Shown one piece after another: positions 39,815 through 58,561 of a stretch of DNA of 64,000 nt. Origin of the DNA: Pseudomonadota bacterium (GTDB lineage: Bacteria; Pseudomonadota; Gammaproteobacteria; Burkholderiales; Rhodocyclaceae). Within the stretch, counting starts at the first letter, position 1. Each line of letters opens with the position of its first letter. The DNA lies in the NCBI GenBank assembly GCA_018241725.1, contig JAFEDI010000114.1:1-64000 (forward strand). Reading direction: 5' to 3'. A program made the translations under genes and the position numbers. The notes below the pieces were generated by a model. That model had not been told where the DNA came from and did no database searches. It saw only the letters and a program-made list of their open reading frames with translations.

Positions 39815-40339
39815 CTAGATGATGTCCAGGTGACTGACTACCTGACGGACGATTTCAGGAGTGGCCAGGCTGAGCGTATCCAGACGGAATTCAGGCGCTT
39901 CGGGGGGCTCGTACGGGGCATCCCAGCCGGTGAGCCCGCAGATCTCGCCGGCCCGTGCCTTGGCGTACAGGCCTTTCGGGTCGCGCCGCATGCACTCCTC
40001 CAGTGGCGTGCTCAGGTGAATTTCGATGAACTGTCCGTTGGGAACCCGGTTTCTGGCCTGTTCCCTGTCGGCTCTGAAGGGCGAGACAAAGGCGCATATC
40101 ACGTCCAGCCCCGCGCTCCACATCAGCCGGGCGACTTCGCCAGCGCGCCGGATATTCTCGCTGCGGTCCTCGGGCGAGAGCCCCAGGTCGGCACACAGAC
40201 CTTTGCGCAGTTCGTCCCCATCGAGTACGAAAGCTTGCCGCCCTCGATCCTTCAGCGCGGTGGCGAGCGCGTGGGCGAGTGTCGTCTTTCCAGCGGCAGG
40301 CAAGCCGGTGATCCAGTAAATTCGCGGTGGGGCAGCCAT
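39815..40339 (-). CDS. cysC: Adenylylsulfate (APS) kinase
   Basis: 174 residues. The P-loop is GLPAAGKTT (about 12-20), followed by LDGDELRKGL and SPEDRSENIRR, the APS-binding signature of CysC. It phosphorylates APS to PAPS, the universal sulfuryl donor. It is not beside cysDN or cysH, as an assimilatory copy would usually be. Instead it lies downstream of the giant surface-protein gene, after a strong terminator, and on the same strand as a sulfotransferase gene. It should have its own promoter in 40340-40458. Confidence 0.92.
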   Translation of the reverse strand: MAAPPRIYWITGLPAAGKTTLAHALATALKDRGRQAFVLDGDELRKGLCADLGLSPEDRSENIRRAGEVARLMWSAGLDVICAFVSPFRADREQARNRVPNGQFIEIHLSTPLEECMRRDPKGLYAKARAGEICGLTGWDAPYEPPEAPEFRLDTLSLATPEIVRQVVSHLDII

Positions 40340-40458
40340 AAGGGGCGTCGGGTCAGGTTATGTAGATATGACCAAATGTTGGGCGTTGGAGCACGATGCT
40401 CGCGCAGCAAATTACCATGAGGGGCGGCGGCTGCATGCAGCCTCGCGATTTTGAGATC

Positions 40459-40486
40459 AAAAAAAGACGGGGGATTTCCCCCCGTC
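40459..40486 (-). terminator. Rho-independent terminator of the giant surface-protein gene
   Basis: On the minus strand GACGGGGGG-AAAT-CCCCCGTC forms a stable hairpin followed by seven T residues. It lies 34 bp after the stop at 40520 and separates that gene from cysC. Confidence 0.92.
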
Positions 40487-40519
40487 AAAGATCTGAATCG
40501 CCTTGTTGGCCCCCGCGCC

Positions 40520-43500
40520 TTACGGCAGGAAGCGGTCGTGGTACTCGGTGGTCTGCGTGAACAAGCCGATGACCTCCGTGACGGGCATGCCGTCATCCAG
40601 CTTGCCCATCCAGTAGTCGAACCCGGCCGGCTCGGGGGTGCGTCCAAGCAGGCCGACGTAGTCCAGCGTCACGCCGACGGCCTGATCGGTCGCGGCCCGG
40701 GCTTCGGCGGACTGGGTGATCTCCAGCAACACGTCGCTGCGGCTGCTCCCGCTGGTCAGGCGGTCCTGCCAGTAGGTCTGCCCGGCCGTGTCCGGGGCCC
40801 GATCCAGCACGTGCTGGTAGAGCTGGCTCAGGAAGCCGGCGTTGTCGAGCCCGTCATACAGGCCCTTGAACTCGGCGCTGCCGGCAAAGTCCGCACCGAT
40901 CGTGGCGAGGCTGTGGTCGCTCAGACGTTCCGCCATCCAGTAGTCCATCCCGGCCTTGTCGGGCAGGCGACCGAAGGCGCCGAGGTAAAGCCGTGCGAGC
41001 CCTCCCGCGCCGTCCTGGAATTCCGGCGACTCAAGAAAGCGCTGGGCGACCTCGTCGCGGGTCAGCGTCCCTGAGCCGATCTGATCCATCCAGTAGTTCA
41101 GGCCGCCGCTTTCCGCTTCACGGAACAGGGTGTCGCGATAAAGCTGCATGACGAAGAACTTCGTGCTGCCGAAGACGTCGTTGTCCTTGGTGCCGACGGT
41201 CAGGCCATTGGCCGCTTCCAGCGCATCGGGGAACTGATCGTTGTCGCTGTCGCTGCTGCTGGTCGTGGCCCGATAGCCGGGCGCGCCCGGATCGCTGATC
41301 ACGCCGTTCTTGACGCCGTCACTGTCGAACTCGCTCCCGTCGGTGATCTGGAAGTCCAGGCGCGTCTTGCCGCCTTCGGTGACGACCTGCCCGCCGTATG
41401 GGGCGCTGGCCAGGTTGACCCAGTCGCCGGCCGCATCCTGCTTCCAGTAGCCGTTGATGGGGATGCTGCCATCCACATACAGGCTGAAGTGCTCCGTCCC
41501 GCCGACGGTGGCGAGCTCCGCCTGGAAGCCGATCAGCCCCAGCGGCATGGCGAGGTCGGCGGGCTTGTCGGCCGGGGCGTCGAGCTGCTGAACGGCCTTG
41601 AGGACCGTGGGCGTGGCCTGGGTCGTATCGGTCTTGCCATTGATCGAGTCGCTGACCAGCGTCACGAAGACCGGCGGGGCGTCGCCCGGATGGCTCTGGG
41701 CGGTGTCGGTGTTGAGGAACGGTACCGACGTGACATTGGCCTGCAGGCCATCGGCGACCCCATCGCCGTTGCCATCCCCCGTGACACCGCCGGCCTCGAG
41801 TACCGGGACGAGTTGCTCCGTGGAGGACGGAACGTTGTCGCCGTCATCCGCGGTGTCGATGGTGACGGACAGGCTGGGGGAGGCGAGGCTGACGTTGCCG
41901 ACCGTGTCGAGGGCTTTGGCGGTCAGCGTATGGACACCGTTGTCCAGGGCACTGGCGGTGATGCTCCAGTGGCCGCTGTCGTCCGCCACGGTCGAGCCGA
42001 GCAAGGTGGTGCCGTCGGTGTCGTAGAGGGCGACGGCCATGCCGGCCTGAGCGGTGCCGACGAAGGTCGGTGTCGTGCTGGAGGTCAGGTTGTCGCTGGA
42101 GGAAGTGCCGGTATCGCTGGCCGGGGTCAGGTCCGGCGCGGAGGGGGCATTGGGTGCCAGCGTGGCCACCGTGATGGTGCGCGTCGCCGTGTTGCCGACG
42201 TTGCCGGCCGCATCGGTCTGGGTTGCGCCGATCGTCTTGACGCCCTCGCCCATCGCCGCGATGTCGGCAGCGACCAGCGTGTAACTCCAGCTCGTGCCGT
42301 CGACGGTGGCTGTGCGCGTGTTGCCCCCCAGGCTCAGCGCGACGGTGGCGCCGGCCTCGTTGCTGCCGGTGAGCGTGGTGCCGACTTCCTGTGCGTTGAT
42401 GATGTCGTCGGCGGCAACGACGTGGATGTCCGGCGCCGCGGGCGCAAGGGTATCCACGGCATAGTTGAGCGTGCTGGCGGTGCCCGCACCGGTGTTGCCG
42501 GCCGCATCGGCCACGCCGGTGTTATCCAGCGTGATGAGGTTGCTGGTGTCCGTGACGCCGGCGGTCGGCGTGTAAGTCGCCGTCCAGGTGAGGCCGCCGT
42601 CGCTGGAACTGACGGCGGACAGGGTGCCGTTGGCGACGCTCAGGTCGGCATTGCTGAAGCCACTCACCGCTTCGCTGAAGGTGACGGTGACGGTGGCCGT
42701 ATCGCCGATCTTGAGGGCGGTATCGGACAGCGCGATCGTTGCCGTCGGGCGCTGCGTGTCGATGGCGTAGGGGGCCGAGTCGGTGCTGCCCGTACCGGCA
42801 TTGCCGGCCACGTCGGTGATGCCGGCGTTATCCAGCGTGATGAGGTTGGCGGTACTCTCGACGCCGGCCGTCGGCGTGTAGATCGCCGTCCAGGTGGTCC
42901 CGCCGTCGTTGGAACTGACGGCGGACAGGGTGCCGTTGGCAACGCTCAGGTCGGCATTGCTGAAGCCGGTGACCGCTTCGCTGAAGGTGACGGTGACGGT
43001 GGCCGTATCGCCGATCTTGAGGGCGCTGTCGGACAGCGCAATCGTTGCCGTCGGGCGCTGCGTGTCGATGGCGTAGGGGGCCGAGTCGGTGCTGCCCGTG
43101 CCGGCATTGCCCGCCGCGTCGGCCACGCCGGCGTTGTTCAGCGTGATGACGTTGCTGGCGTCCGTGAGGTTGGCCGTCGGCGTGTAGGTCGCCGTCCAGG
43201 TGGTCCCGCCGTCGTTGGAACCGACGGCGGACAGGGTGCCGTTGGCAACGCTCAGGTCGGCATTGGTGAAGCCGGTGACCGCTTCGCTGAAGGTGACGGT
43301 GACGGTGGCCGTATCGCCGACCTTGAGGGCGGTATCGGACAGCGCGATCGTCGCCGTCGGGCGCTGCGTGTCGACGGCGTAGGGGGCCGAGTCGGTGCTG
43401 CCGCTACCGGCGTTGCCCGCCGCATCGGCCACGCCGGCGTTGTTCAGCGTGATGGCGTTGCTGGCGTCCGTGACGTTGGCCGTCGGCGTGTAGATCGCCG

Positions 43501-46500
43501 TCCAGGTGATCCCGCCGTCGCTGGAACCGACGGCGGACAGGGTGCCGTTGGCGACGCTCAGGTCGGCATTGCTGAAGCCGGTGACCGCTTCGCTGAAGGT
43601 CACGGTGACGGTGGCCGTATCGCCGATCTTGAGGGCGCTGTCGGACAGCGCAATCGTTGCCGTCGGACGCTGCGTGTCGATGGCGTAGGGGGCCGAGTCG
43701 GTGCTGCCCGTGCCGGCATTGCCCGCCACGTCGGTGATGCCGGCGTTGTTCAGCGTGATGAGGTTGCTGGCGTCCGTGACGTTGGCCGTCGGCGTGTAGA
43801 TCGCCGTCCAGGTGATCCCGCCGTCGCTGGAGCCGACGGCGGACAGGGTGCCGTTGGCGATGCTCAGGTCGGCATTGCTGAAGCCGGTGACCGCTTCGCT
43901 GAAGGTGACGGTGACGGTGGCCGTATCGCCGACCTTGAGGGCGGTGTCGGACAGCGCGATCGTCGCCGTCGGACGCTGCGTGTCGACGGCGTAGTTGGCC
44001 GAATCGACGCTCCCCGAGCCGGTGTTGCCGGCCGCATCCGTAATGCCGGTGTAGTCCAGCGTGAGGGCGTTGGTCGCGGCGGTGGTGCCAGCCGTCGGGG
44101 TCAGCGTGGCGGTCCAGGTGAGGCCGCCGTCGTTGCTGCTGAGGTTGGACAGGCTGCCGTTGGCGACCGTCACATCGGCAGTCGTGAAGCCGGTGACGGC
44201 TTCCGTGAAGGCGAAGGTGACGGTGGCCGTGTCGCCGATCTTGAGGGCCGTATCCGAGATCGCGATGCTTGAGGCGAGGCTCGGGCGCACGGTATCGACC
44301 GCGTAGCTGGCACTGTCGGCCGTGCCGGTACCGGCATTGCCGGCCGCGTCGGCGATGCCGGTGTAGTCCAGTGTGAGGACGTTGCTGGCCGCGGTGGCGC
44401 CGGCGGCCGGGGTCAGCGTGGCGGTCCAGGTGAGGCCGCCGTCGCTGCTGCTGAGCTTGGAGAGGCTGCCATTGGCGACCGTCACGTCGGCGGTCGTGAA
44501 GCCGGTGACGGCTTCCGTGAAGGCGAAGGTGACGGTGGCGGTATCGCCGATCTTGAGGGCCGTGTCCGAGATCGTGATGCTTGAGGCGAGGCTCGGACGC
44601 ACGGTATCGATGGCGTAGTTCGGCGAATTACTCGTCCCCGAGCCGGCATTGCCGGCCAGGTCGGTGATGCCGCTATTGTTCAGCGTAAGGACGTTGGTGG
44701 CGGCCGTGATGCTGGACGTCGGGGTCAGCGTGGCGGTCCAGGTCGTGCCGCCGTCGCTGGAGCTGAGCTTGGAGAGGCTGCCATTGGCGACCGTCACATC
44801 GGCCGCGGTGAAGCCGGTGACGGCTTCCGTGAAGGCGAAGGTGACGGTGGCGGTATCGCCGATCTTGAGGGCCGTGTCGGAAATCGCGATGGTCGACGCG
44901 AGGCTCGGGCGCACCGTGTCGATCGCATAGTTGCCACTTTTGACCGTGCCGGTGCCGGCATTGCCGGCCGCGTTGGTCACCCCCGTGTAGTCCAGCGTGA
45001 GGACGTTGGTCGCGGCGGTGGTGCCGGCCGCCGGGGTCAGCGTGGCGGTCCAGGTCGTGCCGCCGTCACTGCTGCTGAGATTGCTGAGGGTGCCATGGGA
45101 CACCGTCACGTCGGCGGTCGTGAAACCGCTGACCGCATCCATGAAAGTGAAGGTGACGGTGGCGGTATCGCCGATCTTGAGCGCCGTGTCGGAAATCCCG
45201 ATGGCCGATGCGAGGGTCGGGCGCTGCGTGTCGATGGCGTAGTTCGGCGAATCGACGGTCCCCGAACCGGCATTGCCGGCCGCATCCGTAATGCCGGTGT
45301 AGTCCAGCGTAAGGATGTTGGCGGTGTCAGCGACATTGTCCGTCGGGGTCAGCGTGGCGGTCCAGGTCGTGCCGCCGTCGCTGCTGCTGAGCTTGGAGAG
45401 GCTGCCATTGGCGACCGTCACATCGGCCACGGTGAAGTCGCTGACGGCTTCCGTGAAGGTGAAGGTGACGGTGGCGGTATCGCCGATCTTGAGCGCCGTG
45501 TCAGAAATCGTGATGTCCGACGCAAGGGTCGGGCGCACCGTATCGATCGCGTAGTTGGCACTGTCGAGGGTGCCGGTGCCGGCATTGCCGGCCGTGTCGG
45601 TCACCCCCGTGTAGTCCAGCGTGATGACGTTGGTCGCCGAGCTGATGCTGGCATCGGGGGTCAGCGTGGCGGTCCAGGTGATGCCGCCGTCCGACGAACT
45701 CAAGTCGCTGATCTTGCCGTTATCTGCAAGCAGATCGGCGGTGGTGAAGCCGCTGACCGCCTCCGTGAAGGTGAAGGTGACGGTGGATGTGTCGCCGATC
45801 TTGAGCGCCGTATCGGACAGCGAAATCGTCGCGGTCGGGCGCTGCGTGTCGACGGCGTAGTTCGGCGAATCGACAGTGCCCGAGCCGGCGTTGCCGGCCG
45901 CATCGCTGATGCCCGTGTAGTCCAGCGTGAGGACGTTGGTCGCCGCGGTGGTGCTGGCACTGGGCGTCAGCGTGGCGGTCCAGGTCGTGCCGCCATCACT
46001 GCTGCTGAGGTTGGAGAGCGTGCCATGGGGCACCGTCACGTCGGCGGTGGTGAAGCCGCTGACCGCTTCCGTGAAGGTGAAGGTGGCCGTGGCGGTGTCG
46101 CCGATCTTGAGCGCCGTGTCCGAGATCGTGATGGCCGATGCCAAGCTCGGGCGCAGGGTGTCGATCTTGTAGTTCGGCGAATTGCTCGTCCCTGTGCCGG
46201 CATTGCCGGCCAGGTCGGCGATGCCGGTGTTGTCCAGGGTGAGGATGTTGGTGGCGTCCTCGATGTCGGCCGTCGGCGTCAGGGTTGCCGTCCAGGTGGT
46301 GCCGCCGTCACTGCTGCTGAGCTTGGAGAGGGTGCCATTGGCGACCGTCACGTCGGCGGTGGTGAAATCGCTGACCGCTTCCGTGAAGGTGAAGGTCACC
46401 GTCGAGGTGTCGCCGACCTTGAGTGCCGTGTCGGACAGCTTGATGGCACTGGCCAGGGCGGGCGCCGTGTTGTCGATCTCCACGGTGGTGGCCGGGGATG

Positions 46501-49500
46501 CCGCGCTGACGTTGCCGGCCACGTCGGTCACTTCGAGGGTGACGCTGTGCGTACCGGCACTCAGGCTCGAACTGGTGACCGACCACTTGCCCAAGGCGTC
46601 GGCGGTCGTGGTGCCGATGACGGTCTTGCCGTCGGTATCGAACAGCTTGACGGCGGCGAAGGCTTCCGTCGAGCCGGAGAAGTCCAGGGTGGTGAGATTG
46701 GTGATGCCGTCCGAGCTGGAGACACCGGAGTCGGAGCTGGCGGACAGCGTCGGCGCGGCCGGTGTGCTGGGAGGCGTGGTATCGACGGTCACGCTGAGCG
46801 CAGAGGACGCCGCGCTGGTGTTGCCGCCGGCATCGGTGGCCTTGGTGGTGAGGGTGTGGCTGCCCTCGCTCAGGGTGCTGCTGGTGATGGACCAGTTGCC
46901 CTTGCCATCGGCGGTCGCCGTGCCCAGCACGGTGGTGCCGTCGGTGTCGTAGAGCGTGACGGTGGAATTGGCTTCGGCGGTGCCGGTGACGGTGGGCGTG
47001 GTGGCGTTGGTGAGCTTGTCGGTGCTGGAGCTGCCGGTGTCGCTGCCGCTCGCCAGGTCCGGCGTGCCGGGGCTGCTCGGTGCGGTGGTGTCGAGGGTGA
47101 CCGTCAGCTCTCCGCTGGCGACGCTGGTGTTGCCCGCCGTGTCCACCGCCTTGGTGGTGAGGGTGTGGCTGCCCTCGGCGAGCGTGCTGCTGGTGATCGA
47201 CCAGTTGCCGCTGCCGTCGGCGGTCGCCGTGCCCAGCACGGTGCTGCCGTCGGTGTCGTAGAGGGTGACGGTGGAATTGGCTTCCGCCGTGCCGGTGAAG
47301 GTCGGCGTGGTCGCTGAAGTGAGGTCGTCGCTGTTCGAACTGCCCGTATCGCTTCCCGCATCGAGGTTCGGCGCCGACGGGGCCGCTGGAGCGGCAGTGT
47401 CGATCGTGACGCTGAGGGTAGACGACAGCGCGCTCTGATTGCCGGCGGCATCGGAAACCTTGGCTCCAATGGTATGGTCGCCGTCGCCGAGCTTGCTGCT
47501 GGTGATGCTCCACTTGCCGGCACCATTGACCGTGCCGGTGCCGACTACGGTGGTGCCATCGGTGTCATACAAGGTCACCGTGGAGCCGATTGTGCCCGTG
47601 CCAATGAAGGTCAGAGTGGTCTTGTTGGTGATGTTGTCGTTGGAGGACACGCCGCTGTCGGTTCCCGCCGTCAAGTCCGGCGCCGATGGCGCACCGGGAG
47701 CCGTCGTATCGATGGTGACGGACAAGCCGGCAGATGCACTGCTGACATTGCCGGCCGTGTCGGTGGCCTTGGTGGTGAGGGTGTGGCCGCCCTCGCTCAG
47801 GGTACTGCTGGTGATGGACCAGTTTCCGCTGCCGTCGGCCGTGGCGGTGCCCAGTACGGTGGTGCCGTCGGTGTCGTAGAGGGTGACGGTGGCGTTGGCT
47901 TCCGCCGTGCCGCTCAGGGTGGGCGTGGTATCGCTGGTGATGTCGTCAGAGTTACTTGAGCCGGTGTCGCTGCCTGCATCCAGATCCGGCGTCGACGGTG
48001 CCGCCGGCGCAATGCCGTCAATCACCACCGCCGAGGTTTCCGCCAGCGAATGACCGCTGCTGGTGCCGGGCAGGGTCAGGTCCGCCGCGCTGCCATTGGC
48101 CACCGAGACGATCGCGCCGCTATTCAAATCAAATGAAGCGGTGTCGAAATACTGCAGATCGGCGCTGCTGTCGCCAGCCTGAACGGTATAGGCAAACTCC
48201 AGGTCTTGGCTGCCACTGCCGGAGACATAAGCCGCATATTCGTCGTTGGTACCGGTCTCAAGCAGAATGCGCGGCGTGCCATTGGTGTCGTCAACCACCA
48301 CCGCCTGGTCGAAGCTGACCTTGAAGGTCACGATGTCCCCGACCTTGTAACTCTTGTCGCCCGAGGTCTGGATCACCTCGGAGATTACTGGCGGGGGGGT
48401 CACCACGGTCAAGGCATTGGTGGTATCTGCCACCGTCGTGACTTCGGTATTCCAGTAGATCGCCGCACTCAAATTATAGGTTTTGCCGTCGCTCGCCTTC
48501 GTACCGTCCTTATCCAGCAAAGCCGAGAAGGCAGCAATGTCAGTGCTGTTCAGCGTCACCGAGAAGCTGGTCGCCGACGTCACATCCACATCGCCCGACG
48601 TCAGCGTGTAGTCGACTCCGCCCAGGCCCGTCAGGGTCAGCTTGGGAATCGTCACATCGTTGGCGCCTTGCAGCGCAACCATGTTCTGCCCGGTGGCCGT
48701 CAATACATGGGTGCTGGTGTTGTAGGTCGCCGAGGAAATCGTCGGCACCACTACGCCCGACGCCGACCCCGGGTTGATCACTGCCGGCGTGCCGGCATAG
48801 TTGTCCGGGGAGTAAGCGAACGATGTATTCCATCCGGCGGCCGCTGCAATGTGGTAGGAATACCCATTCAGATTGCTTGTGCCGTCTTGGTTCATCAGTC
48901 CATCGATGAACAATTGATCGGCGGCATTCAGTTGAATCGTAAAGCCGGTCGTTCCCGTTACGGTCACCGCGCCCGCACTGTAGGGCGTGGTCAGGGTATA
49001 GCTGGCCTTCGTCGTGCCGGAATCGATCAATTCCAGCGTGAGCTTGGTCGGATCGACGGTATCGTTAACCGTGTCGAGCCCGCTCCCGACAAAGGTCATC
49101 AAACCCGCCGAAGCGCCGCTGACCACATACGAAGCCTGAGTGATGCTGGCAATCCCGCTCACCGTCATGCCCGTGCCGGAGAACGCGCTGTCCTGCGTGC
49201 CGGCAACACCGGTATCCCAGCCTTCGGCCGTGCTGACCGAATAAGTCTTACCGTTGAAAGAACTGGTCCCGTTCTTGGTCAGAATTTGCTGCAGAGCGGC
49301 CTGATCGGTGGCCGACACGGCGATCTGAAAACTGGTGGAAGACGAAATCTCCACATCCGCCGTGTCGGTCAGCGTATAGGAGCCCCCTTGCCCCTTGAAA
49401 GTGAACAACGAGGCGTCGATATCCTTGCCGCTGGCGAGCGCGACGAAACCGGTGCCGGTAACGGTGAGCACCCCGGAACGCTCGTCATACGCAATGGACG

Positions 49501-51316
49501 AGACCACCGGCGAGGTATCCACCACGGTCACCGTCAGGGCGCTTGTTGCCGAGCTCATGTTGCCGGCGGTATCGCCCGCCTTGGCGGTAATCGTATGCAC
49601 CCCGCCACTCAGGGCACCGGACCCGGTAATGGACCATTTGCCGGATCCATTGACGGTGCTATGACCGATTTCGGTGGTGCCGTCGGTATCGTAGATATAC
49701 ACCACGGACCCGATTTCACCTGTTCCGATAAAGGTGGGTGTGGTGGCGTCGGTAATGTTGTCGGTCGAAGAGGTCCCGATATCCGTGCCGGCGGTCAGAT
49801 CGGGGGTACTCGGCGTGGCCGGAGCGGTGGTGTCGAGCTGATAGGTATGCGAATAAGCCGTTGCGCTGCCGCCGCTGTTGCTCACGCGCACCTGGAAAGT
49901 ATTACTGCCCGACAGGGTCGTGTCGGTATACCAGTCGCTTGAGTCGACAGTGTAATTGGTCGCATTGCTCCAGGTGGTGCCGTTGTCGAATGAGACTTCG
50001 ACATACTCCCCCGTGGCCAATTTGGAGGACAGGGTGCCGCTGATGCGCTGAGCCGAAGTATTGGTAATGAAGTCGGAGCTGCTCACCCCCGTGTCAGCGG
50101 ACATCGAGGCCGAGGCCACCGTGGTGGTGGGGGCGACGACCAAGCCTTTTATATTGGTCAGCGCAATCGTGTCCACTGCTACGTAGTGGATGTTTCCGCT
50201 CAAGGCGGTCATTTTCAAGTAGGTAATATCTGTAAAACCGGCAAAAGTTGCGGTGTTTACAGTGGCTGCCTTGGTCGACAACACCAAATTGGTTGCGGTT
50301 CCAACCTTATTGTTGGATGCGTCATACCCTTGAAAAACCAGCGTTTGAGACTTCGTCCCATAATTCATAATGTCAACCGCGTTGGCGGTGAACATATTTC
50401 CTGCGGCGAAACTGAAGGTGACCGAGGTTTCACCCGCCCCCGTCGTCGCAGAATCGTTGGCATCCACCAGGAAATAATTGACGCCTGGGCCGTTGTTGTA
50501 GTGGTAAACGGGCTGGGTTGCACCGTTTGCATGGAGATCGTAATTGCTATCGCCATTGATCCTATACACCACATCGACCGATGCGTCCTTATGACTCCCG
50601 GTGCTGATCAAGTTGGCGCTGTTGTAATCAAAACCCACAGTCGCACTGGCTATATCCAACACGCTGGCATACAAACCTGCCAGACGGCTGTCTACCACGA
50701 CTGCTGTTTCAATATTGCCGAGTTTTACCTCCAGATCCCAATCGCCGCCCAGCGCTGCCGCACCAGTCAAGTCGTTTGAAGCGGCGACATCCGCGCCGGT
50801 GGCAATCGCCAGATCATTGACCAGTTCGCGCCCGGCCTCGCCGGCGCCGACATTACAGCCGTAGATGAGGAAATCCGCATCCGGGCTCAGGCTCTGCCCG
50901 ATCTGCTGCAATTCGCTCTGATGGAGCGCCAGCTGCGTCTTGTCCAGCAGCAGGCTGCCCAGGTCTACCGCGCCGGCCTTGCCGTGGGACAGCAGATGGA
51001 TCGCGTCGATGCCGCTGCGCCCGGCCAGGATCTGCGCCATCTGCGCGAGGCCGTCCTGCTCCGGGTCGAGCACATGGACTTCCCGGCCAGCGCCCATGCC
51101 TTGCAACAACTCATCCAGGTTCGGCAGGTTGCCTTCGACAAACACCACTTCCTGACGACTGGAATTCAGGGCCAGAGCCCCCAGGCCCAGCGCCGGGTCA
51201 CTGACAACCATCAAGTCATCGAGGTTCGCCGCAGTCGGCGTCGGGGAGGTCGTGCTGACATCGCCACCGAGGATCTGAAATTGGGTATCGGTCGGGAAAA
51301 CGCCATCGTTCATCAT
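40520..51316 (-). CDS. Giant DUF4347/Ig-repeat/DUF4214 surface protein
   Basis: 3598 residues. About residues 30-215 are a DUF4347 domain ([49 protein letters not shown]). The middle holds seven Ig-like units of type DTTAPxAPSxPDL...[20 protein letters not shown] and thirteen units of about 102 residues ([22 protein letters not shown]...[14 protein letters not shown]). Near the end are calcium-type [10 protein letters not shown] and [12 protein letters not shown] segments, then DUF4214 modules ([22 protein letters not shown] and three similar). No Sec signal and no GGxGxDxLx nonapeptides were seen, so export may be type I-like but is unproven. The start overlaps the sulfotransferase stop (ATGA). 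An adhesin or matrix protein is the likeliest role. Confidence 0.85.
42458..46476 (-). repeat. Thirteen tandem Ig-type repeats of about 306-312 bp
   Basis: Inside the giant gene, thirteen consecutive copies of one Ig-like module follow each other. The five most 3' copies (about 42.46-43.99 kb) keep an exact 306-bp period and near-identical DNA, so they look like recent amplification; the others have drifted more. Adjacent copies alternate linkers DTQRPTA and DTVRPSL. Such arrays are prone to copy-number change and assembly collapse. Confidence 0.9.
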
Positions 51317-52158
51317 TCAATTTCCTTGGCTTTGGGTTTCGGCGCGATGACATTGGCGGCACTGCCGCTCGGATCGGTCCAGAAAGTCAATTGGCTGTAT
51401 TTTTCAAACAAGTCCGGGGGCAGGACGGAGCGGCGCTCGCTGAAGCTGACCTTGGGCCGGACGCGGTGCAGGCCCGGAACGCCCAGTTGCAGATCGAAAT
51501 CCGGTGCGTCGTATTCGACATGCTCAAAGTCATGCTCGAAATACGGCTCGCCCAGAAAGCTATAGACCAGTGGCATCACTTTTTCAGGTGCCTGGGCCAG
51601 CAAATCGTAATCGACCACCAGCAGGCGGCTGGCATGCTCGCCGTAAAAGGCTTCGCGCAGGGCCGCCCACGCAAAGCCGACCAGCTGCTCGTGCTGCGCC
51701 AGGCTTTCCAGGCGCTGGTAGACGGTGCTGCGGCCGGGGTTGCCGCCAAACAGCTTGGTGTATTCGTAAGGGTTGCTGCGGTACTTGCGCTCGATGCTGT
51801 CCATCACCCACGCGACATTGCGCGCGCAGGCAATCACCTTGGCTTCCGGAAACAGGTCCTGCAGCAAAGGCATGCGGGCGCACCACAGGCGGTTCGTATC
51901 GAAGATGACTTCCTTGTCCTGCTCCCCCTGGTAATAGGAATGGAACAAGCCGGTCAGCAGGTTTTTGCGCTGGGTGTTGTCGACCTGGGCAGCAAACTCG
52001 CTGCCGGCACTGACCTGAGCCAAAAGGCTACTGACAAAGCCGCCTACCGGGCTGCTCATGCCGGCCTGAAAGCGCGGGTTCTGCCGCAGGATGGCCGACA
52101 GCAGCGTCGAGCCGGAACGCGGCAGGCCGCTGATGAAATGAAAACGATGTGCACTCAT
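51313..52158 (-). CDS. PAPS-dependent sulfotransferase family protein
   Basis: 281 residues. The 5'-phosphosulfate loop is [19 protein letters not shown] (about 9-27), and the 3'-phosphate site is [19 protein letters not shown] (about 116-134). It fits the sulfotransferase_3 type of bacterial enzymes, similar in these motifs to tyrosylprotein sulfotransferases. Its acceptor is unknown; the gene for a 3598-residue surface protein overlaps its stop by four bases, and a methyltransferase ends nine bases upstream of its start. An APS kinase gene lies at the other end of the cluster. Sulfation of the surface protein or of its glycans is inferred. Confidence 0.88.
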
Positions 52159-52167
52159 GTCAGCGGG

Positions 52168-53727
52168 TCAGGAGGATTCAGTTGATCGGACCCGGGCGAT
52201 CAACAACGCCTTCAGGATGGGGAGCTGCTTGGCGGCGAAAGCTCTCGCTCGGGCGGTCAGTTCGGCGAGGTTCTCCTCAGGGCTTTCCAGCGTCCTGCCT
52301 TCCACAACCAGTCGCTGGCCCTGGACTGCCATGATTTGCCACGCGTCCTGTACCCACTCGGCCGGCTCCTCCTTGCCTGCCGCATGCGCAGCAAGGAACA
52401 ACTGCTGGAAGCGGTTCAGGGCGATCCCCCCACCGGTCACCGGGCTGGACAGGAAGCCAAGCTCATTGCTCCCCCGCGCTTTCCGGCACAGGTGAGCATT
52501 GAGCCGGTCGGCCTGCGGCTTGGCCCGGGCAATCACGCGGTCGTCTTGCACCATCGCCACGTGCCCCGCGCCGGTGAGCACCATCACGACCTCGACGATC
52601 TGTCTCAAGCTGAGTCCTGCGCCCGCCACGGCGCGCTCGATCTCGCCAAGACTACGCACCCGATGATCCGCGAGCAGATCGAGGATGGGGTGATAGACCG
52701 ACTCGGTCAGCGTCGCCTCCCCCACCGTGGTACGAAGCTTCAGCGACACATCGGGGCGACCAGTGGTCAGGATTACCCGCTGAGCACGCAGGGCCTCGGC
52801 CCTCTCCAACTCATTGAGCTTGCGCGCCCCCCTGACCCAGTAATCGCGCCGGAACTGCTGATTGATCAGAAAATCGCGCGTGGTCTCGCGGAACATCGGG
52901 TCGGGAATGTCTCTCAGGAAAGCCTGCTGTTCACCGGACAGGCTCAGCGCCTCGATGTGGTCGAGACAATGCGCGGAGCAGGCGTAATCGAGCTTGGCCG
53001 GCGCCAGCCACTTGGCCATCGTCGCAAAATGCATCGGATGCCAGTCGCGGTTGAAATACTCATGCGCAAGGTACTGGCGGCTATGCTCCTTGAGCTTCTG
53101 TAGGCGCTCGGCCACGAAGGGATTGGCCTGGCTGAAAGCCGGGTTCAAGCCCAGCAACTTGTCGGCAAAAGCCAGGGCACCATCGATCCGTTTGACGATA
53201 CCGTGCCCCTCCGCCCCCAGAACCTCCGCATGCTCGGTGAGCAGATGGCGCATCGGCGCAAAAGACGCCCAGCCCGGCTGCGTGTTGTAGCTGATGTACA
53301 GAACGCCCCCGACCTTGAGCTTGCGCCGGACGAAGTCGACGATGACCTGGCGATTCTCGTCCGAGATCCAGCTCCAGATGCCGTGCAGGCCGATGAAGTC
53401 GAAATCGGGCAAATCGGTCCGCGCTGCAAAATCGGCAAAGGCCTCGTCGAACAACTGGGCGCCAGCACCGGAGGCGGCGGCGAGTTCCTGCGCAAAGCCT
53501 GCCTGACTGGGGTTGAAATCGGTGCCGCACCACTGCACGACACTGGCCGCAGCGTGGAGATTGGCCGACAAGCCCTGACCAAAACCAAGCTCACAGGCAC
53601 TCCCCACCTCGGGGAACACGAGCCCCTGATACAGGAACGCGAGCCTGGCGCGCTGCGGATTCAGTTCCGTGTAATAGCCATAGGTATACCCAATATCGGC
53701 CACATAGCCCGCAGTCCAGTCATTCAT
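52168..53727 (-). CDS. SAM-dependent methyltransferase with regulatory domain
   Basis: 519 residues. A class I methyltransferase fold spans about 40-200, with ACELGFGQGLS as the SAM-binding glycine motif and DFDFIGLHGIWSWI as motif-II-like. The C-terminal half resembles the methyltransferase regulatory domain (PF10119 type) seen in proteins encoded near surface-polymer genes. The substrate is unknown. It heads the operon methyltransferase-sulfotransferase-giant protein, so modification of the surface protein or a glycan is plausible. Upstream DNA (53728-53962) shows no gene. Confidence 0.85.
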   Translation of the reverse strand: MNDWTAGYVADIGYTYGYYTELNPQRARLAFLYQGLVFPEVGSACELGFGQGLSANLHAAASVVQWCGTDFNPSQAGFAQELAAASGAGAQLFDEAFADFAARTDLPDFDFIGLHGIWSWISDENRQVIVDFVRRKLKVGGVLYISYNTQPGWASFAPMRHLLTEHAEVLGAEGHGIVKRIDGALAFADKLLGLNPAFSQANPFVAERLQKLKEHSRQYLAHEYFNRDWHPMHFATMAKWLAPAKLDYACSAHCLDHIEALSLSGEQQAFLRDIPDPMFRETTRDFLINQQFRRDYWVRGARKLNELERAEALRAQRVILTTGRPDVSLKLRTTVGEATLTESVYHPILDLLADHRVRSLGEIERAVAGAGLSLRQIVEVVMVLTGAGHVAMVQDDRVIARAKPQADRLNAHLCRKARGSNELGFLSSPVTGGGIALNRFQQLFLAAHAAGKEEPAEWVQDAWQIMAVQGQRLVVEGRTLESPEENLAELTARARAFAAKQLPILKALLIARVRSTESS

Positions 53728-54251: not shown

Positions 54252-54905
54252 CTACAGCGCCACTGACTCAAGCCGCTTCAGCCACGCATCGAAATGCGGG
54301 CATGCGGCCCGTATGGCATCCAAGCCGATATCGCAGGCGATGAGCGGGCCATGAATGGTCTTTTGATAACCGGGCATGGCCGCCAATACACGCTTCGATG
54401 GGGCACTCTGCGGACCATCATTGATCTCTTCAGGCGGTGCCGCACTTCGCGCAGACCTCAGGGGCTCCAGCATGCGGTCGTTGTCGGTCCACGCTGCGAA
54501 CGCATCGACCTGAGTCAGCAATAGCGCTTCGAATTCATGAACAAGCAGATTGGGAATGAAATTCGTGGCCCCGATATCTTTTCCCAATGCGGCCTCAAGG
54601 AACCCGGCTTTCATGTGTCCGTTCCCGTTGCGGGGATACGCCGGCTCAGCCTTGCCCGGAAAATCGCCGGGCAGCGCATAGAGATCGAACAAGGTGGAAA
54701 CGTGGGCGCCCGCATCCTGCTTGCACAACTTCTCGATCTGGGGCTTGATCTTGGCGTAGCTCACGACGCCCCCCTTGTGGCCGGGGCTGGTACGCACAAG
54801 GATGGGGATGAGGTACAGGCCCTGCCTCTCGTAATGAGGCGCCAGGAGTTCGGTGACAAAAGCTTCTTCCGTCTGCCCTTCGACCAGAAGATAAACGCGG
54901 CTCAT
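54252..54905 (-). CDS. DUF4276 (Toprim-like) protein of an ATPase pair
   Basis: 217 residues. The N-terminal MSRVYLLVEGQTEEAFVTEL is the DUF4276 signature, with the acidic VEGxTEE of Toprim-like folds. FDLYALPGDFPG and LLVHEFEALLL carry further acidic residues suited to a metal site. DUF4276 proteins are commonly coupled to an AAA ATPase, forming a split OLD-like nuclease arrangement. Here the ATG overlaps the stop of the ATPase gene by four bases. Antiphage function is likely by analogy but not shown. Confidence 0.85.
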   Translation of the reverse strand: MSRVYLLVEGQTEEAFVTELLAPHYERQGLYLIPILVRTSPGHKGGVVSYAKIKPQIEKLCKQDAGAHVSTLFDLYALPGDFPGKAEPAYPRNGNGHMKAGFLEAALGKDIGATNFIPNLLVHEFEALLLTQVDAFAAWTDNDRMLEPLRSARSAAPPEEINDGPQSAPSKRVLAAMPGYQKTIHGPLIACDIGLDAIRAACPHFDAWLKRLESVAL

Positions 54906-56002
54906 CGCCCCGGCCTCCCACCGAGCAGATTCTTCTTCCAGAGATCCCCAAGGCTGTATTCACCCAGCCACTCCGTCAGCGCCCCCGTATCCAGCCGGCT
55001 GAAGACAGACGCACCTCCGCGCTTGTCGACAACGATCAGGTCTTCCGCATCGAATTCATTGACCAATTCAACCGACTGGGTCGACACGATCAATTGATGC
55101 TGTTGCGCCGCGGATTTCATCAACCCGCCGAGCACGCTGATGGCGAACGGGTGCAACCCCAGCTCCGGCTCGTCGATCAAGATGGCCGCCGGAATGAATG
55201 CGTCCGGTTGCAAAAGCACCGTCGCCAGGCAGATGAAGCGCAGGGTGCCGTCCGACAGAGCGCTCGCGGAAAACGGCTCGTCCTGCCCTTTCTCCGTCCA
55301 TTCGAGCTGGATCTTCTCCCGGTTGTCCACCGTGGGACGCAGATGGAAATCACCGAAGAAGGGTGCAACCAGTCCAATCGCCTTCACGATGCGCCGGTAG
55401 TGGGCCTCGTGATGGTTCTTGAGCCGGAGCAGAAAAGCCGCGAGGTTGCGCGCGTCGTCCCGCAGGTATTCGTTGTCGTTGATGTTGTGGATCTGCTTGA
55501 CCAGCGCACTGCCGCTCGTGTCATGAAAGTGGTACAGGCGCCAGCTGCGCATCGGCGGCACGACGTAGTCATAGATACGCGTGTGCGCCTTCTGCTCCTC
55601 CACATAGGTCTCGAAGTGGCCGGAGCGAGGCCGCCAGTCACCGTGCCGGTTCCACCACAGCGCCTCGTGGGCAAACATCATCCGGTTGTCCTGGGTGGGC
55701 CGCAGCGTGAAGCGGTAACCGTTGTTGCCGAAATACAGCTCGGCGTCCAGGGTCTCCGTCTTCTTGCGGCCGAAGTGCAGCAGCACATCCGGCCCGCCTG
55801 CCAACCCGACCGCACTCTGCAACTGTTCATCCAGAATCCGGTTGATCAGGCGAAAGAAGCCGATGAGGTTGGACTTGCCCGCGCCATTAGCGCCGATCAA
55901 CACATTGAGCCGGCCCAGGGGCAGATCGCACTCCGCGATGGACTTGTAACCACGCAGCACGAGACGTGAAATATGGCCCGAATTGTTCACCTGCTTGATC
56001 AC
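54902..56002 (-). CDS. AAA/RecF-like ATPase paired with DUF4276
   Basis: 366 residues counted from a GTG at 56002, which has GAGGGGAG just upstream. Longer in-frame readings lack such a site. Walker A is GANGAGKSN (about 36-44), the ABC signature SASALSDGTLRF, Walker B AAILIDEPELGLHP, and a D-loop/H-loop follows with VSTQSVELVNEF. This is the AAA_21 ABC-type ATPase found in OLD family systems. It is translationally coupled to the DUF4276 gene and is bracketed by direct repeats. Confidence 0.88.
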   Translation of the reverse strand: MIKQVNNSGHISRLVLRGYKSIAECDLPLGRLNVLIGANGAGKSNLIGFFRLINRILDEQLQSAVGLAGGPDVLLHFGRKKTETLDAELYFGNNGYRFTLRPTQDNRMMFAHEALWWNRHGDWRPRSGHFETYVEEQKAHTRIYDYVVPPMRSWRLYHFHDTSGSALVKQIHNINDNEYLRDDARNLAAFLLRLKNHHEAHYRRIVKAIGLVAPFFGDFHLRPTVDNREKIQLEWTEKGQDEPFSASALSDGTLRFICLATVLLQPDAFIPAAILIDEPELGLHPFAISVLGGLMKSAAQQHQLIVSTQSVELVNEFDAEDLIVVDKRGGASVFSRLDTGALTEWLGEYSLGDLWKKNLLGGRPGR

Positions 56003-56129
56003 TGCACTCCCCTCAACTACGACGCCACTCCTCAACGCTCCAGCCCGCCGCCGGGCCTCTCCGGCGCAGCGCCAACCCATGCCCAATCCACCAAGACATT
56101 AGCACGCCGCGCCGATCCGGGCCCGCTCG

Positions 56130-56405
56130 TCAGTCCAGCGGGTGCTCCCCCCTCCTCTCCCGCAGCGCCTCGAACAGATCCCGCATCTCCTGGGCCAGCA
56201 TCGAGCACGCCCACAGGTAATTGTCCTGCAGCGTCGGATTCATGCGCCGGAAGGCATCCCCCGCGTCGCCATAGGTCATGGCCAGCAAGGACAGCAACTG
56301 CACCTGACGGGCGGAAAGCTGATCGACGATGGCCAGCGCATTGGCCTCCTCGGCCAGCCGGTAGAACGGCCCCGCCGGCGCGGGGAAAGTGAACGGCGTA
56401 TTCAT
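56130..56405 (-). CDS. Small hypothetical protein whose 3' end is duplicated nearby
   Basis: 91 residues with no recognised family. It has an N-terminal PAPAGPFYRLAEEANALAIVDQ and a conserved NPTLQDNYLWACSMLAQEMR stretch; a helical soluble protein is likely. Part of its 3' end recurs at 53985-54071 (86/87) and at 39665-39697 (32/33). The ATG overlaps the stop of a 37-codon leader (ATGA), so it is probably translated by coupling. Confidence 0.72.
   Translation of the reverse strand: MNTPFTFPAPAGPFYRLAEEANALAIVDQLSARQVQLLSLLAMTYGDAGDAFRRMNPTLQDNYLWACSMLAQEMRDLFEALRERRGEHPLD
56161..56247 (-). repeat. 87-bp direct repeat, right copy
   Basis: This segment of the 91-codon gene is repeated with one mismatch at 53985-54071. 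The 2.1 kb between the copies is occupied by the AAA-DUF4276 pair. Confidence 0.9.
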
Positions 56406-56515
56406 CGCAGCGCCCTCCCCTCGCCCCGCGCCCGGCGCGGAAGAGGCGAAACAATTACGAAGGCATTACGGATGGACGCGTGCGAACCGACGCACGCCAG
56501 GGTGGAAACGACCAT
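56402..56515 (-). CDS. 37-codon leader ORF overlapping the 91-codon gene
   Basis: An ATG at 56515 with AAGGAG eight bases upstream opens a 37-residue frame (MVVSTLACVGSHASIRNAFV, then a basic tail). Its TGA overlaps the start of the downstream gene. The strong ribosome site and the overlap argue that it is translated. It resembles the short leader ORFs of the P4 Ash type in layout only; no function is known. Confidence 0.6.
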   Translation of the reverse strand: MVVSTLACVGSHASIRNAFVIVSPLPRRARGEGRALR

Positions 56516-56671
56516 GGTGCGGACTCCTTGTTTGGAACACTTCCGCTCTCCGTCGCCAAACGGGGGGCGGGCCAAAGCAGGGTTGGCGAACCGGAAACAA
56601 GGAACCGGCAGGGCCGAAGCCCTCCCCACCCGGCCCGCCATTGATCATGGACGCACCAAGGGTGCACGGAC

Positions 56672-56692
56672 AAAAAAAGCCGCAACGCGGCT
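56672..56692 (-). terminator. Hairpin with T-tract upstream of the leader ORF
   Basis: On the minus strand AGCCGC-GTT-GCGGCT is followed by six more T residues, a compact intrinsic terminator. Since the leader ORF lies 157 bp further on, it may act as an attenuator for that unit or end a transcript entering from the right. Confidence 0.7.
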
Positions 56693-57091
56693 CACCATCC
56701 GCCTTGTTTTCAGCAGGTCGCCAAACCTGATCGCTGTTGTTTCAGCGACGGGCGGGAGTATCGGCTGGGGGTCGCGGGGGCGTCAAGGGAGGGGGATGAC
56801 GGGGGCGAATGGGGAAATCGTCAAAGAACTGGTGAGTCTGTGAAATTTGAAAAATGTGAAGTGGTTCGCTGCAAAGGGGGCGAGCCTAGTGAGATACCCC
56901 ATAATATCCGACATAAAACAACGTTCCCAGCGAGGAGCGAACTAAGGAAGCAGAGTGACTCTCGTCACAGCCGAAATCGCGGCCCTTGATTTCAGCGAAA
57001 CATCGCTCAGCAACGACTGCAGTGAGCAATGCCCTCAAACACCTTTTCAACACTACCAAAAATCAATAAATATTCTACTGAGAAATAAAAC
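56693..57091. other. Intergenic stretch at the edge of an AT-rich island
   Basis: No gene seen. The base composition changes from GC-rich to AT-rich near 56830. The last 100 bp before the ATPase gene are rich in A and T, with GAGAAATAAAAC before its ATG acting as ribosome site. Confidence 0.5.
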
Positions 57092-58561
57092 ATGACACAG
57101 AAAACAATAACATTTGACGACGCAACAATAGAAAAACTCTTTGGTAACGAAGCAGCCGATTACGAGAACATTGACAGACTCCGAGAGTACTACTTCAAGA
57201 GCAAAATATACAGTCGAGTAACAGCCGACCTGCCTTTAAGAATTATCGTCGGCCACAAGGGTGTTGGAAAGTCCGCTTTAATAAGGTATGCCATGCATGA
57301 AGATTATATGAATGGCACTTTGCCGATCCTTATTAAGCCGGACGATGTCGTGGAGGTTGCCAAGAGCAACGTAGACTTTCTTCAGCGAATTAAGGACTGG
57401 AAGACTGGGCTTTCCCAAGTCATAGGAAAGAAAGCACTCGAAGACTTTGGGATTGGCGATAACGCGACACTACAGATTTTCACACAACCCGGCGGGAAAC
57501 TGCTCAACTTAATTCACGATTCAATTTCAGGCTTTCTTCAGAAGACGGGAGTTAATATCGGACCAACAAAGGAAAGCATAGCAAGACGGTTTCTTGAAAA
57601 GAAAAAGATTCGAGTATACATTGATGATCTTGACCGCGGCTGGGCGGCCAGGAAAGATGAAATCAATCGAATTTCCGCCCTCCTGAGTGCCATTCTTGAT
57701 ATGTGCACAGAATACCCTGGACTCCAATTTAGAGTAGCACTTCGGTCAGATGTTTATTTTTTATATCGAACGTCGGATGAATCTACGGACAAGACGGAAG
57801 GATCTGTTGTCTGGTTCTCGTGGACCAATCATGAGATCCTTGTACTTCTAGCAAAAAGGGTGGAAACATATTTTGGACGCACCACTCCCGATGAGTTAGA
57901 AAAACTTCCACAAAGAGATTTAGCGAAATTTCTATTGCCAGTCATGGAGGAAAGATTCCATGGTGCAGGAAAGTGGGAAAATGCCCCGATACACAGAATT
58001 CTGATGACACTTATCAGGCGTCGCCCCAGAGACTTGGTGAAGTTGTGCTCTTTAGCTGCGCGGCATGCTCATGAGCGGGGGCAGTCTAAGATCTACACAG
58101 AAGACTTTGAGGCAATATTCGAAGAGTATTCCCAAGGCAGATCACAAGACACATTCAATGAGTACAAGAGCGAACTCCCTCAGATTCAAAGGCTCATTGA
58201 AGGCATGAGGCCAACAGCTAAAGAAGTCAAAGAGGGCAAGGGCTGGATCTATAGCACAGATGCTCTAAACAAGAAAATTGCAAACATCTGCCAACAAGGC
58301 TCGTTCACATTTTCAAGCGGAACAAAAGCCACCCCAAAAGAATTGGCGCAATTCCTATACAAAATCAATTTTCTAATAGCAAGAAAAGACTACGACAGCG
58401 ATGGACTAATTGAAAGAAGATACTTTGAAGAGAATAGATACATCTCTTCCGAGTTTCGTGACTTTGGCTACGACTGGGAAATTCACCCTGCATTTCGCAA
58501 GCATCTTCAACCAGAAAATATTTTTTCGCTCTCGAGATTCATTGCCCTGAGCGCAGATTAA
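57092..58561 (+). CDS. Sll1717-family P-loop ATPase (probable defence or stress protein)
   Basis: 489 residues. Walker A GHKGVGKSA sits at about 54-62, Walker B VYIDDLDRGW at about 177-186, and a sensor-like RVALRSDVYFLYR follows. The C-terminal 200 residues are helical and include RRRPRDLVKLC. It resembles the Sll1717 group of P-loop ATPases, which has no settled role but occurs in defence islands. Base composition and codon use (AAA, ATA, AGA) are far more AT-rich than the neighbours, so it was acquired recently. An IS256 remnant lies downstream. No obvious partner gene is next to it. Confidence 0.75.
   Translation: MTQKTITFDDATIEKLFGNEAADYENIDRLREYYFKSKIYSRVTADLPLRIIVGHKGVGKSALIRYAMHEDYMNGTLPILIKPDDVVEVAKSNVDFLQRIKDWKTGLSQVIGKKALEDFGIGDNATLQIFTQPGGKLLNLIHDSISGFLQKTGVNIGPTKESIARRFLEKKKIRVYIDDLDRGWAARKDEINRISALLSAILDMCTEYPGLQFRVALRSDVYFLYRTSDESTDKTEGSVVWFSWTNHEILVLLAKRVETYFGRTTPDELEKLPQRDLAKFLLPVMEERFHGAGKWENAPIHRILMTLIRRRPRDLVKLCSLAARHAHERGQSKIYTEDFEAIFEEYSQGRSQDTFNEYKSELPQIQRLIEGMRPTAKEVKEGKGWIYSTDALNKKIANICQQGSFTFSSGTKATPKELAQFLYKINFLIARKDYDSDGLIERRYFEENRYISSEFRDFGYDWEIHPAFRKHLQPENIFSLSRFIALSAD

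Follow-up and report, generated by a model that had tools for sequence, protein, structure and literature searches.

The stretch of DNA analyzed here (the window; 64,000 nucleotides) is positions 1 to 64,000 of contig JAFEDI010000114.1 in assembly GCA_018241725.1, from a Pseudomonadota bacterium assigned to the Rhodocyclaceae. Between positions 39,815 and 53,727 it carries genes for a methyltransferase, a sulfotransferase (ST), a giant repeat protein and an adenosine 5´-phosphosulfate (APS) kinase. A preliminary description of this DNA had proposed that the ST modifies the giant protein and that the kinase feeds the ST with 3´-phosphoadenosine 5´-phosphosulfate (PAPS). The locus contains the following features:

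52168..53727, minus strand: methyltransferase, 519 aa (PF10119 MethyTransf_Reg, 1.7e-33), kin of the protein lysine methyltransferases (PKMT)
51313..52158, minus strand: ST of the RaxST kind, 281 aa (PF13469 Sulfotransfer_3, 3.9e-16)
40520..51316, minus strand: giant repeat protein, 3598 aa, the presumed substrate
50657..51148, minus strand: DUF4347 domain at the giant's N-terminus (1.1e-54), the domain with which this ST clade is paired
41276..41566, minus strand: choice-of-anchor U domain (choice_anch_U, 2.3e-19), giant residues 3251-3347
40694..40891, minus strand: DUF4214, the best of the giant's three stretches, residues 3476-3541
40466..40486, minus strand: intrinsic-terminator-like stem with a T run, 3´ of the giant gene
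39815..40339, minus strand: APS kinase (CysC; APS_kinase, 2.3e-58), 174 aa, the presumed PAPS supply

The genes, their families and their order are observed directly, and the open reading frames (ORFs) confirm the head-to-tail layout that had been described. The minus-strand order of transcription is methyltransferase, ST, giant, terminator-like stem and APS kinase, with a gap of 9 bp between the methyltransferase and the ST and an overlap of 4 bp between the ST and the giant. Profile matches in the giant comprise 13 Big_12, 7 Big_13 and 3 DUF4214 stretches together with Ca_tandemer repeats. The interval between giant and kinase holds a 9-pair stem followed by seven T (40486-40466), which was judged by its place and strength because terminator-like sites over the whole region are at chance level (9 found versus 8.9 expected).

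Association of the sulfotransferase with giant secreted proteins

Genome contigs were searched with the ST, and the best 80 of 153 relatives (62–82% identical) were retained, which come from Acidovorax, Undibacterium, Massilia, Duganella, Pseudomonas, Methylobacter and other genera. A DUF4347 giant on the same strand starts within 250 bp of the ST end in 75 of the 80 loci, and the exact 4-bp overlap recurs in 21. Because the loci were picked by ST similarity, these counts show that the ST goes with giants, not the reverse. Among the five exceptions, the DUF4347 ORF of two (L064 and L087) has a called start that falls within the ST gene (-580 and -541), one (L088) has its DUF4347 ORF 314 bases past the ST, and one (L040) carries a ShlB transporter and a two-partner secretion (TPS) exoprotein in place of the DUF4347 giant. 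Class-wide, DUF4347 is present in 48 of 369 genomes and the ST in three, the window genome included, and the best ST of all three adjoins a DUF4347 ORF. Order-wide, DUF4347 occurs in 48 of 300 genomes and the ST in 10; none of the eight listed genomes of the window's family has the ST. In a tree built from 126 DUF4347 domains, the ST-linked ones cluster (9 label changes versus 37.5 when shuffled).

The four genes had also been described as a four-part layout. The pairing of ST and giant stands in this comparison, but the set of four does not: a methyltransferase gene lies near the ST in only two of the 80 loci (L018 and L074, both divergent) and in none of the 40 Xanthomonadales loci described below, and 32 of the 80 contain an APS kinase. 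The four genes as one system were therefore rejected.

More distant STs adjoin other classes of exoprotein. Seven of the ten Burkholderiales genomes with an ST match at E<1e-70, and in four of the seven (the window genome, G177, G208 and G269) DUF4347 adjoins the ST; the last three are seemingly the same contigs as L088, L071 and L086 and add no new evidence. G037 combines an exoprotein and two ST copies with a C39-ABC/HlyD/TolC-like set, the make-up also given for L175 (exoprotein, two STs and a type I secretion system, T1SS). One of three weak STs (24–27% identical; L178) adjoins a ShlB transporter and an MBG-repeat protein. A plasmid search gave 15 records that matched the ST, of which five regions were inspected. 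A Caballeronia plasmid encodes on one strand an M10-type exoprotein, the ST, an APS kinase, an ABC transporter with C39, HlyD and an OEP (TolC) protein, and a Nostoc plasmid encodes an RTX protein, the ST and cysC.

In the Xanthomonadales, 338 genomes were searched and 71 contain an ST at E<=1e-10, with up to four STs per genome and 44–67% identity for the stronger ones. A sample of 40 loci, one per genome (40 of the 71) and all at E<1e-70, was inspected. In 19 of the 40 loci the ST has a secreted-like giant on its own strand no more than 300 bases away, and in two more the distance is 0.9 and 3.2 kb. As a control from the same loci, with ORFs picked by length and giants by composition, a same-strand giant is found within 300 bp of 19 of 41 ST ORFs and of 6 of 363 other ORFs. 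Of the 21 giants at the inspected loci, three belong to the DUF4347 class. By eye, 16 of the other 18 start with the extended signal peptide motif of type V secretion (ESPR). Pfam confirmed ESPR in all four giants examined in this way, two of which also have an autotransporter barrel. On the ST tree, which comes from a short search and has long branches (L285 and L229), author-assigned labels and a few duplicate rows, the partner labels need 16 changes versus 47 when shuffled. Across lineages, the genes of one ST family remain beside those of giant secreted proteins while the protein class and the export route change; the ST–exoprotein linkage is conserved in many genera and with several routes of secretion.

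Other genes recur beside DUF4347 giants, with or without the ST: phage tail collar proteins (PF07484) in 47 and a GNAT acetyltransferase in 44 of the 80 ST loci. Loci with this recurrence include L123, L164, L171, L172 and L247-L249. Aspartyl hydroxylase-like, second sulfotransferase-like and GNAT genes lie head to tail at L177:3-3682, perhaps a further modification set, and L034:6339-7349 is grouped with this observation. The DUF4347 domain itself (window 50657-51148) has conserved H111, G112 and Y-G-C (C154) in both linked and unlinked domains, which resemble what we take to be the His and Cys motifs of clan CD cysteine peptidases. No relative was found in the PDB with a single DUF4347 sequence as the query.

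Properties of the enzymes, the acceptor and the export route

Residues R14, R113 and S121 of the ST are invariant across 47 relatives, and its AlphaFold model is confident (pLDDT 89.9). The P-loop starts seven residues from the protein start, which leaves no room for a signal peptide; the ST is therefore predicted to act in the cytoplasm. One Xanthomonadales locus (L285) has ST, HlyD and C39-ABC genes in the order raxST-raxA-raxB, and its ST carries Arg11, His50, Ser118 and Arg129, the residues named in the RaxST paper (PMC6637879); it is called RaxST from these four residues and the gene order. The window ST shares 43.8% identity with this RaxST-like protein over the alignment (45% over query 6-270), and R14 and S121 align to RaxST R11 (the 5´-phosphosulfate-binding Arg) and S118 (the 3´-phosphate-binding Ser). 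The closest solved structures to a profile of the 47 STs are protein-tyrosine sulfotransferases 1 and 2 (TPST1 and TPST2; 8e-12 and 1.5e-9), which match profile positions 5-206. The GEETR stretch of TPST, which we take to hold the catalytic Glu, is mostly GM(S/T)SP in the ST family and ADVTSPV in L285. Its absence is no argument against tyrosine because the RaxST-like ST of L285 is also without it. Both Proteobacteria and Cyanobacteria are reported to have RaxST homologues of about 40% identity, which lie in diverse contexts and whose substrates are given as unknown (PMC6637879).

The kinase is CysC by family score (TIGR00455, 205.5 bits versus a cut-off of 138.7; PF01583, 197 versus 21.1). 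The counts of APS kinases at ST loci are lower bounds, as flank lengths differ. Of 74 ST loci, 17 have an APS kinase no more than 3 kb upstream, compared with none of 33 ST-less DUF4347 loci (within 4 kb upstream; Fisher p=0.0013). In Caballeronia and Nostoc the kinase is the next gene after the ST. A match is given by 3 of the 40 Xanthomonadales loci, and in L282 a fused ATP sulfurylase-APS kinase gene starts 2 bases after the ST. The 32 of 80 loci, the contrast with ST-less loci and the two plasmid neighbours support the proposal that the kinase feeds the ST. The window genome has two APS kinases, on contigs C16 (the window) and C31, and its PF01507 matches, a family that presumably holds both CysD- and CysH-type genes, are on C145 and C66; the kinase is thus away from cysDN/cysH, as had been stated.

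The other APS kinase of the genome (L213; G000:C31:56000-72000) sits amid large glycosyltransferase ORFs and a DUF4214-like ORF. A 496-aa ORF there with a P-loop-like motif was considered as a sulfotransferase; it has no Pfam match and was not counted. The Pseudomonas fuscovaginae mutant Pfv480 was set aside as genetic evidence, as its paper names a bifunctional sulfurylase-kinase gene and gives no link to the locus.

The PDB relatives of the methyltransferase (METHYLTRANSFERASE) are Rickettsia PKMT2 (5doo, 4.1e-14) and PKMT1 (5dnk, 4.3e-11), and by its sequence it is kin of the outer-membrane protein lysine methyltransferases. Asp70 and His115 align to residues that PMC11784438 names as contacting S-adenosylmethionine (AdoMet). 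According to the same paper, KmtA, which is similar to PKMT1/2, methylates more than 130 lysines of the 3630-aa adhesin AtaA; the window giant has 71 Lys. The likeness to KmtA runs via PKMT1/2, not by direct comparison. Since the methyltransferase is kin to enzymes of this kind, the giant may carry two modifications, sulfate and lysine methylation.

A search of the 300 order genomes with the methyltransferase found 15 that match at E<=1e-40, the window genome included, and the neighbours of ten genes were inspected in nine of the other 14. Among relatives of at least 56% identity, both L217 copies adjoin RTX proteins, the L218 gene lies next to an ORF of 1270 aa that has a DUF4214-like match, and a DUF4214-like ORF of 397 aa is found 6 kb away in L216. 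None of the five relatives below 53% (L220-L224) has a giant among its neighbours. Rare near the ST, the methyltransferase is an added, not a core, part. Another relative of at least 56% lies on one strand with a TPR-sulfotransferase and a 1331-aa DUF4214 giant (L219:1-7592), so that the three functions of the window occur there with another sulfotransferase class.

The repeats of the giant had been described as rich in tyrosines next to Asp, the kind of context that tyrosylprotein sulfotransferases prefer. The motifs are there (LYDTDG five times, LDYTG six times), and LYDxDG occurs in 14 of 68 ST-linked giants versus none of 35 unlinked ones (>800 aa). Over the ST-linked DUF4347 giants, Asp is in excess at +3 of Tyr (486 versus 157 expected) and at -4 (323 versus 157), and D/E at +1 (269 versus 204). 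We tentatively put this excess down to Ig-repeat motifs. In the window giant, D/E stands directly beside Tyr 24 times versus 17.1±3.8 in shuffles. As a group, the linked giants are at chance for acids directly beside Tyr, with a median observed/shuffled ratio of 0.96 (68 linked) compared with 1.03 (35 unlinked), and the mean D/E count within five residues of Tyr over shuffled is 1.10 in linked giants, 1.09 in unlinked giants and 1.17 in the window giant. The LYDxDG and Asp+3 signals are absent from the autotransporter partners; 14 ESPR giants have an acid before Tyr 22 times (31 expected) and after Tyr 32 times (31 expected). Strongly acidic Tyr contexts are not in excess: 2 of the 82 Tyr of the window giant have at least three D/E within five residues (shuffles 6.3±2.4). 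The Tyr–Asp argument is thus weak, with contexts that are mixed but mostly at chance or below. Counts in the window giant, in 73 ST-linked and 43 unlinked giants, in the 14 ESPR giants and in five other exoproteins did not uphold strongly acidic sites as a sign of Tyr sulfation.

Tyr216, at the DUF4347 end, was also considered as an acceptor. It is Tyr in 78 of 83 ST-linked rows (two gaps, two W, one F) versus 15 of 47 unlinked rows; the two groups are largely different clades and independent tree pairs do not settle the matter, and it was put aside as a weak lead. The acceptor may be Tyr, another residue or a glycan, and tyrosine is a first guess because RaxST sulfates tyrosine.

Candidate exporters are present elsewhere in the window genome, namely an HlyD-ABC-OEP-like set (L214) and a set of tandem ABC, HlyD and TolC-like genes (L215), in which component names beyond the ABC match are our reading. 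We guess that L215 encodes the exporter of the giant, because tandem ABC genes likewise lie 3´ of the giants in L065 and L077. A protein that joins an M50 peptidase to HlyD is found with further HlyD proteins and OEP in 35 of the 80 ST loci and 14 of the 49 loci of a DUF4347 sample; one ABC query matched only 6 (ST) and 2 (DUF4347-sample) of the related locus sets. Loci with this fusion include L047, L135, L143 and L148.

Interpretation and rival explanations

We infer the substrate, the export route and the timing as follows. The APS kinase would make PAPS locally; the cytoplasmic ST of the RaxST kind would move sulfate from PAPS onto the giant DUF4347/Ig/DUF4214 protein, which is translated from the next, overlapping gene and would be sulfated before export; and secretion of the sulfated giant would be by a type I exporter whose genes lie in another part of the genome. 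Lysine methylation would be a second modification. The core of this proposal, that the ST modifies the giant as had been suggested, is well supported by genome comparison, through the pairing in 75 of 80 loci and the neighbours of other exoprotein classes. As a whole, a surface-protein modification locus with PAPS supply by the APS kinase, cytoplasmic sulfation and then type I export is the reading that we hold with moderate confidence. The giant is probably a sulfated, perhaps also lysine-methylated, surface protein, and the locus likely represents RaxST-type protein sulfation with a new substrate class. RaxX is a worked bacterial case of protein sulfation (PMC6637879). We found no description of the ST–giant pairing in the open-access literature among the matches listed.

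Several results weigh against this reading. Its support is association only. No giant lies within the 4.2 kb examined at L022, none was seen in two of the seven Burkholderiales genomes (G217 and G277), and none appears in the incomplete gene table of three Acetobacteraceae plasmid regions (ST of about 38%). The other 19 of the 40 Xanthomonadales loci have no same-strand giant: one has a divergent ShlB-TPS pair (L253), two have C39-ABC and HlyD (L284 and L285), nine have TonB-receptor-sized and GH2-sized ORFs, assigned by Pfam in one locus (L263) and by size and likeness in the others, and seven have nothing recognised, among them L266, which is cut by a contig end. In 48 of the 80 ST loci the DNA examined holds no APS kinase. 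No exporter or dedicated T1SS genes were seen around the giant in the window, nor any exporter genes among the ORFs around the ST, where a small peptide gene was not searched for. The M50-HlyD protein has no match in the window genome (one query), and that of L047 was accordingly dropped as a candidate component of the exporter. Of the Tyr residues, 1.3% stand in a strongly acidic context in linked giants, a smaller share than the 13.4% in unlinked ones. H50 and R129, which are needed for RaxST function and proposed to bind RaxX (PMC6637879), are S53 and E132 in the window ST; a differing substrate is therefore expected. Finally, 17 of the 80 loci have a mannosyltransferase-type (PMT_2) ORF whose end falls between 177 bp ahead of the ST and 28 bp within it, as assigned by Pfam on one ORF and by one PMT query for the other loci.

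The PMT_2 ORF is one ground for the likeliest of the rival explanations, in which the ST would sulfate not an amino acid but a sugar, be it in a glycan carried by the giant, in the lipid-linked precursor of that glycan or in a separate surface glycan. No such ORF precedes the ST in the 40 Xanthomonadales loci, nor does one occur in the 49 DUF4347-sample loci. The giants are Ser/Thr rich (390 S and 600 T in the window protein), the only NCBIfam match of the ST is NoeE, far below the cut-off, and the nine Xanthomonadales STs beside TonB receptor and GH2-type ORFs also suit a sugar. Against these stand the closest solved structures, which are protein-tyrosine sulfotransferases, and the 44% identity to an ST that matches RaxST, an enzyme with a peptide substrate; moreover, no glycosyltransferase gene lies beside the ST and giant in the window, and none matched in the other 63 of the 80 loci (one PMT query). 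We regard a sugar acceptor as rather unlikely.

The loci with PMT_2 are all from Pseudomonas (L032, L038, L041, L046 and 13 more). The STs with a TonB receptor and a GH2 glycosidase form a clade (L263, L265, L272, L274, L277, L278, L280, L282 and L283).

It is also possible that the kinase serves ordinary sulfate assimilation and stands beside the giant by chance, which would be compatible with sulfation of the giant. By family score it is a standard CysC, and its gene lies behind the terminator-like stem. The second APS kinase of the genome, the CysD/CysH-type genes on other contigs, the enrichment near STs relative to ST-less DUF4347 loci, the ST-cysC neighbours in Nostoc and Caballeronia and the fused sulfurylase-kinase beside the ST of L282 all speak for a dedicated role, and we consider a chance neighbour unlikely. 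Least probable, and in our view very unlikely, is that the enzymes neighbour the giant for regulation or transfer only and the ST modifies another secreted or outer-membrane protein or a metabolite: most DUF4347 giants are without the ST, some STs are without a giant and the distribution of the ST is patchy, but the linkage persists across exoprotein classes (DUF4347, ESPR, TPS and T1SS) and includes the 4-bp overlap in about a quarter of the retained loci.

If the giant is modified as proposed, homologues of RaxST gain a concrete, testable substrate class in giant surface proteins, and two surface-protein modifications are joined in one gene group. Some relatives that have the ST–giant pair, such as strains of Massilia, Duganella or Undibacterium, are culturable. 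The comparison of STs and exoproteins suggests that a little-known sulfate modification is widespread among bacteria. We advance more tentatively, as a plausible rather than a probable extension, that giant bacterial surface proteins are sulfated as a general rule that has been overlooked. RaxST-kind enzymes would then each serve the adjoining exoprotein, by whichever route it is exported (type I, two-partner, autotransporter or DUF4347 exporter), with PAPS supplied locally, and RaxX would be a late, miniature offshoot. The window giant would be doubly modified, by sulfate and lysine methylation, so that its surface charge would be a controlled property.

Elsewhere in the window, plus-strand frames opposite the giant at 41489-44272 (927 aa) and 45095-47317 (740 aa) are most likely by-products of the GC-rich repeats. 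The region 54252-58561 contains DUF4276 and AAA_21 genes with a 4-base overlap and an Sll1717-family P-loop ATPase, which have a phage-defence-like look.

Comparison with known systems

TPST1 and TPST2 are the best PDB relatives of the ST profile; the ST differs from them in that GEETR is not kept and in that its presumed substrates have no excess of strongly acidic Tyr sites. The giant resembles SiiE and LapA, which we take to be type I secreted adhesins with Ig repeats, in its long Ig-like stalk (Big_12 and Big_13) and its Ca_tandemer repeats. It differs from proteins of that kind in its DUF4347 and DUF4214 ends and in the modification gene group.

The methyltransferase and its likely target recall KmtA-AtaA of Acinetobacter sp. 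Tol 5 and PKMT1/2-OmpB of Rickettsia (PMC11784438). The enzyme is PKMT-like and shares the two AdoMet residues, and the target is likely a giant surface protein of similar length (3630 aa in AtaA and 3598 aa here). AtaA is a trimeric autotransporter, whereas the protein here is an Ig-repeat DUF4347/DUF4214 protein with the ST gene between.

The ST shares with RaxST the PAPS motifs and their spacing, in addition to the identity with the L285 protein. As in raxX-raxSTAB (PMC6637879), sulfation, a type I-like export and an adjoining substrate gene would come together. The window differs in being without RaxA/RaxB-type exporter genes and in having the APS kinase and the methyltransferase adjacent. 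The substrate of RaxST is a 60-residue peptide, whereas that of the window ST is presumed to be a surface protein of 3598 aa.

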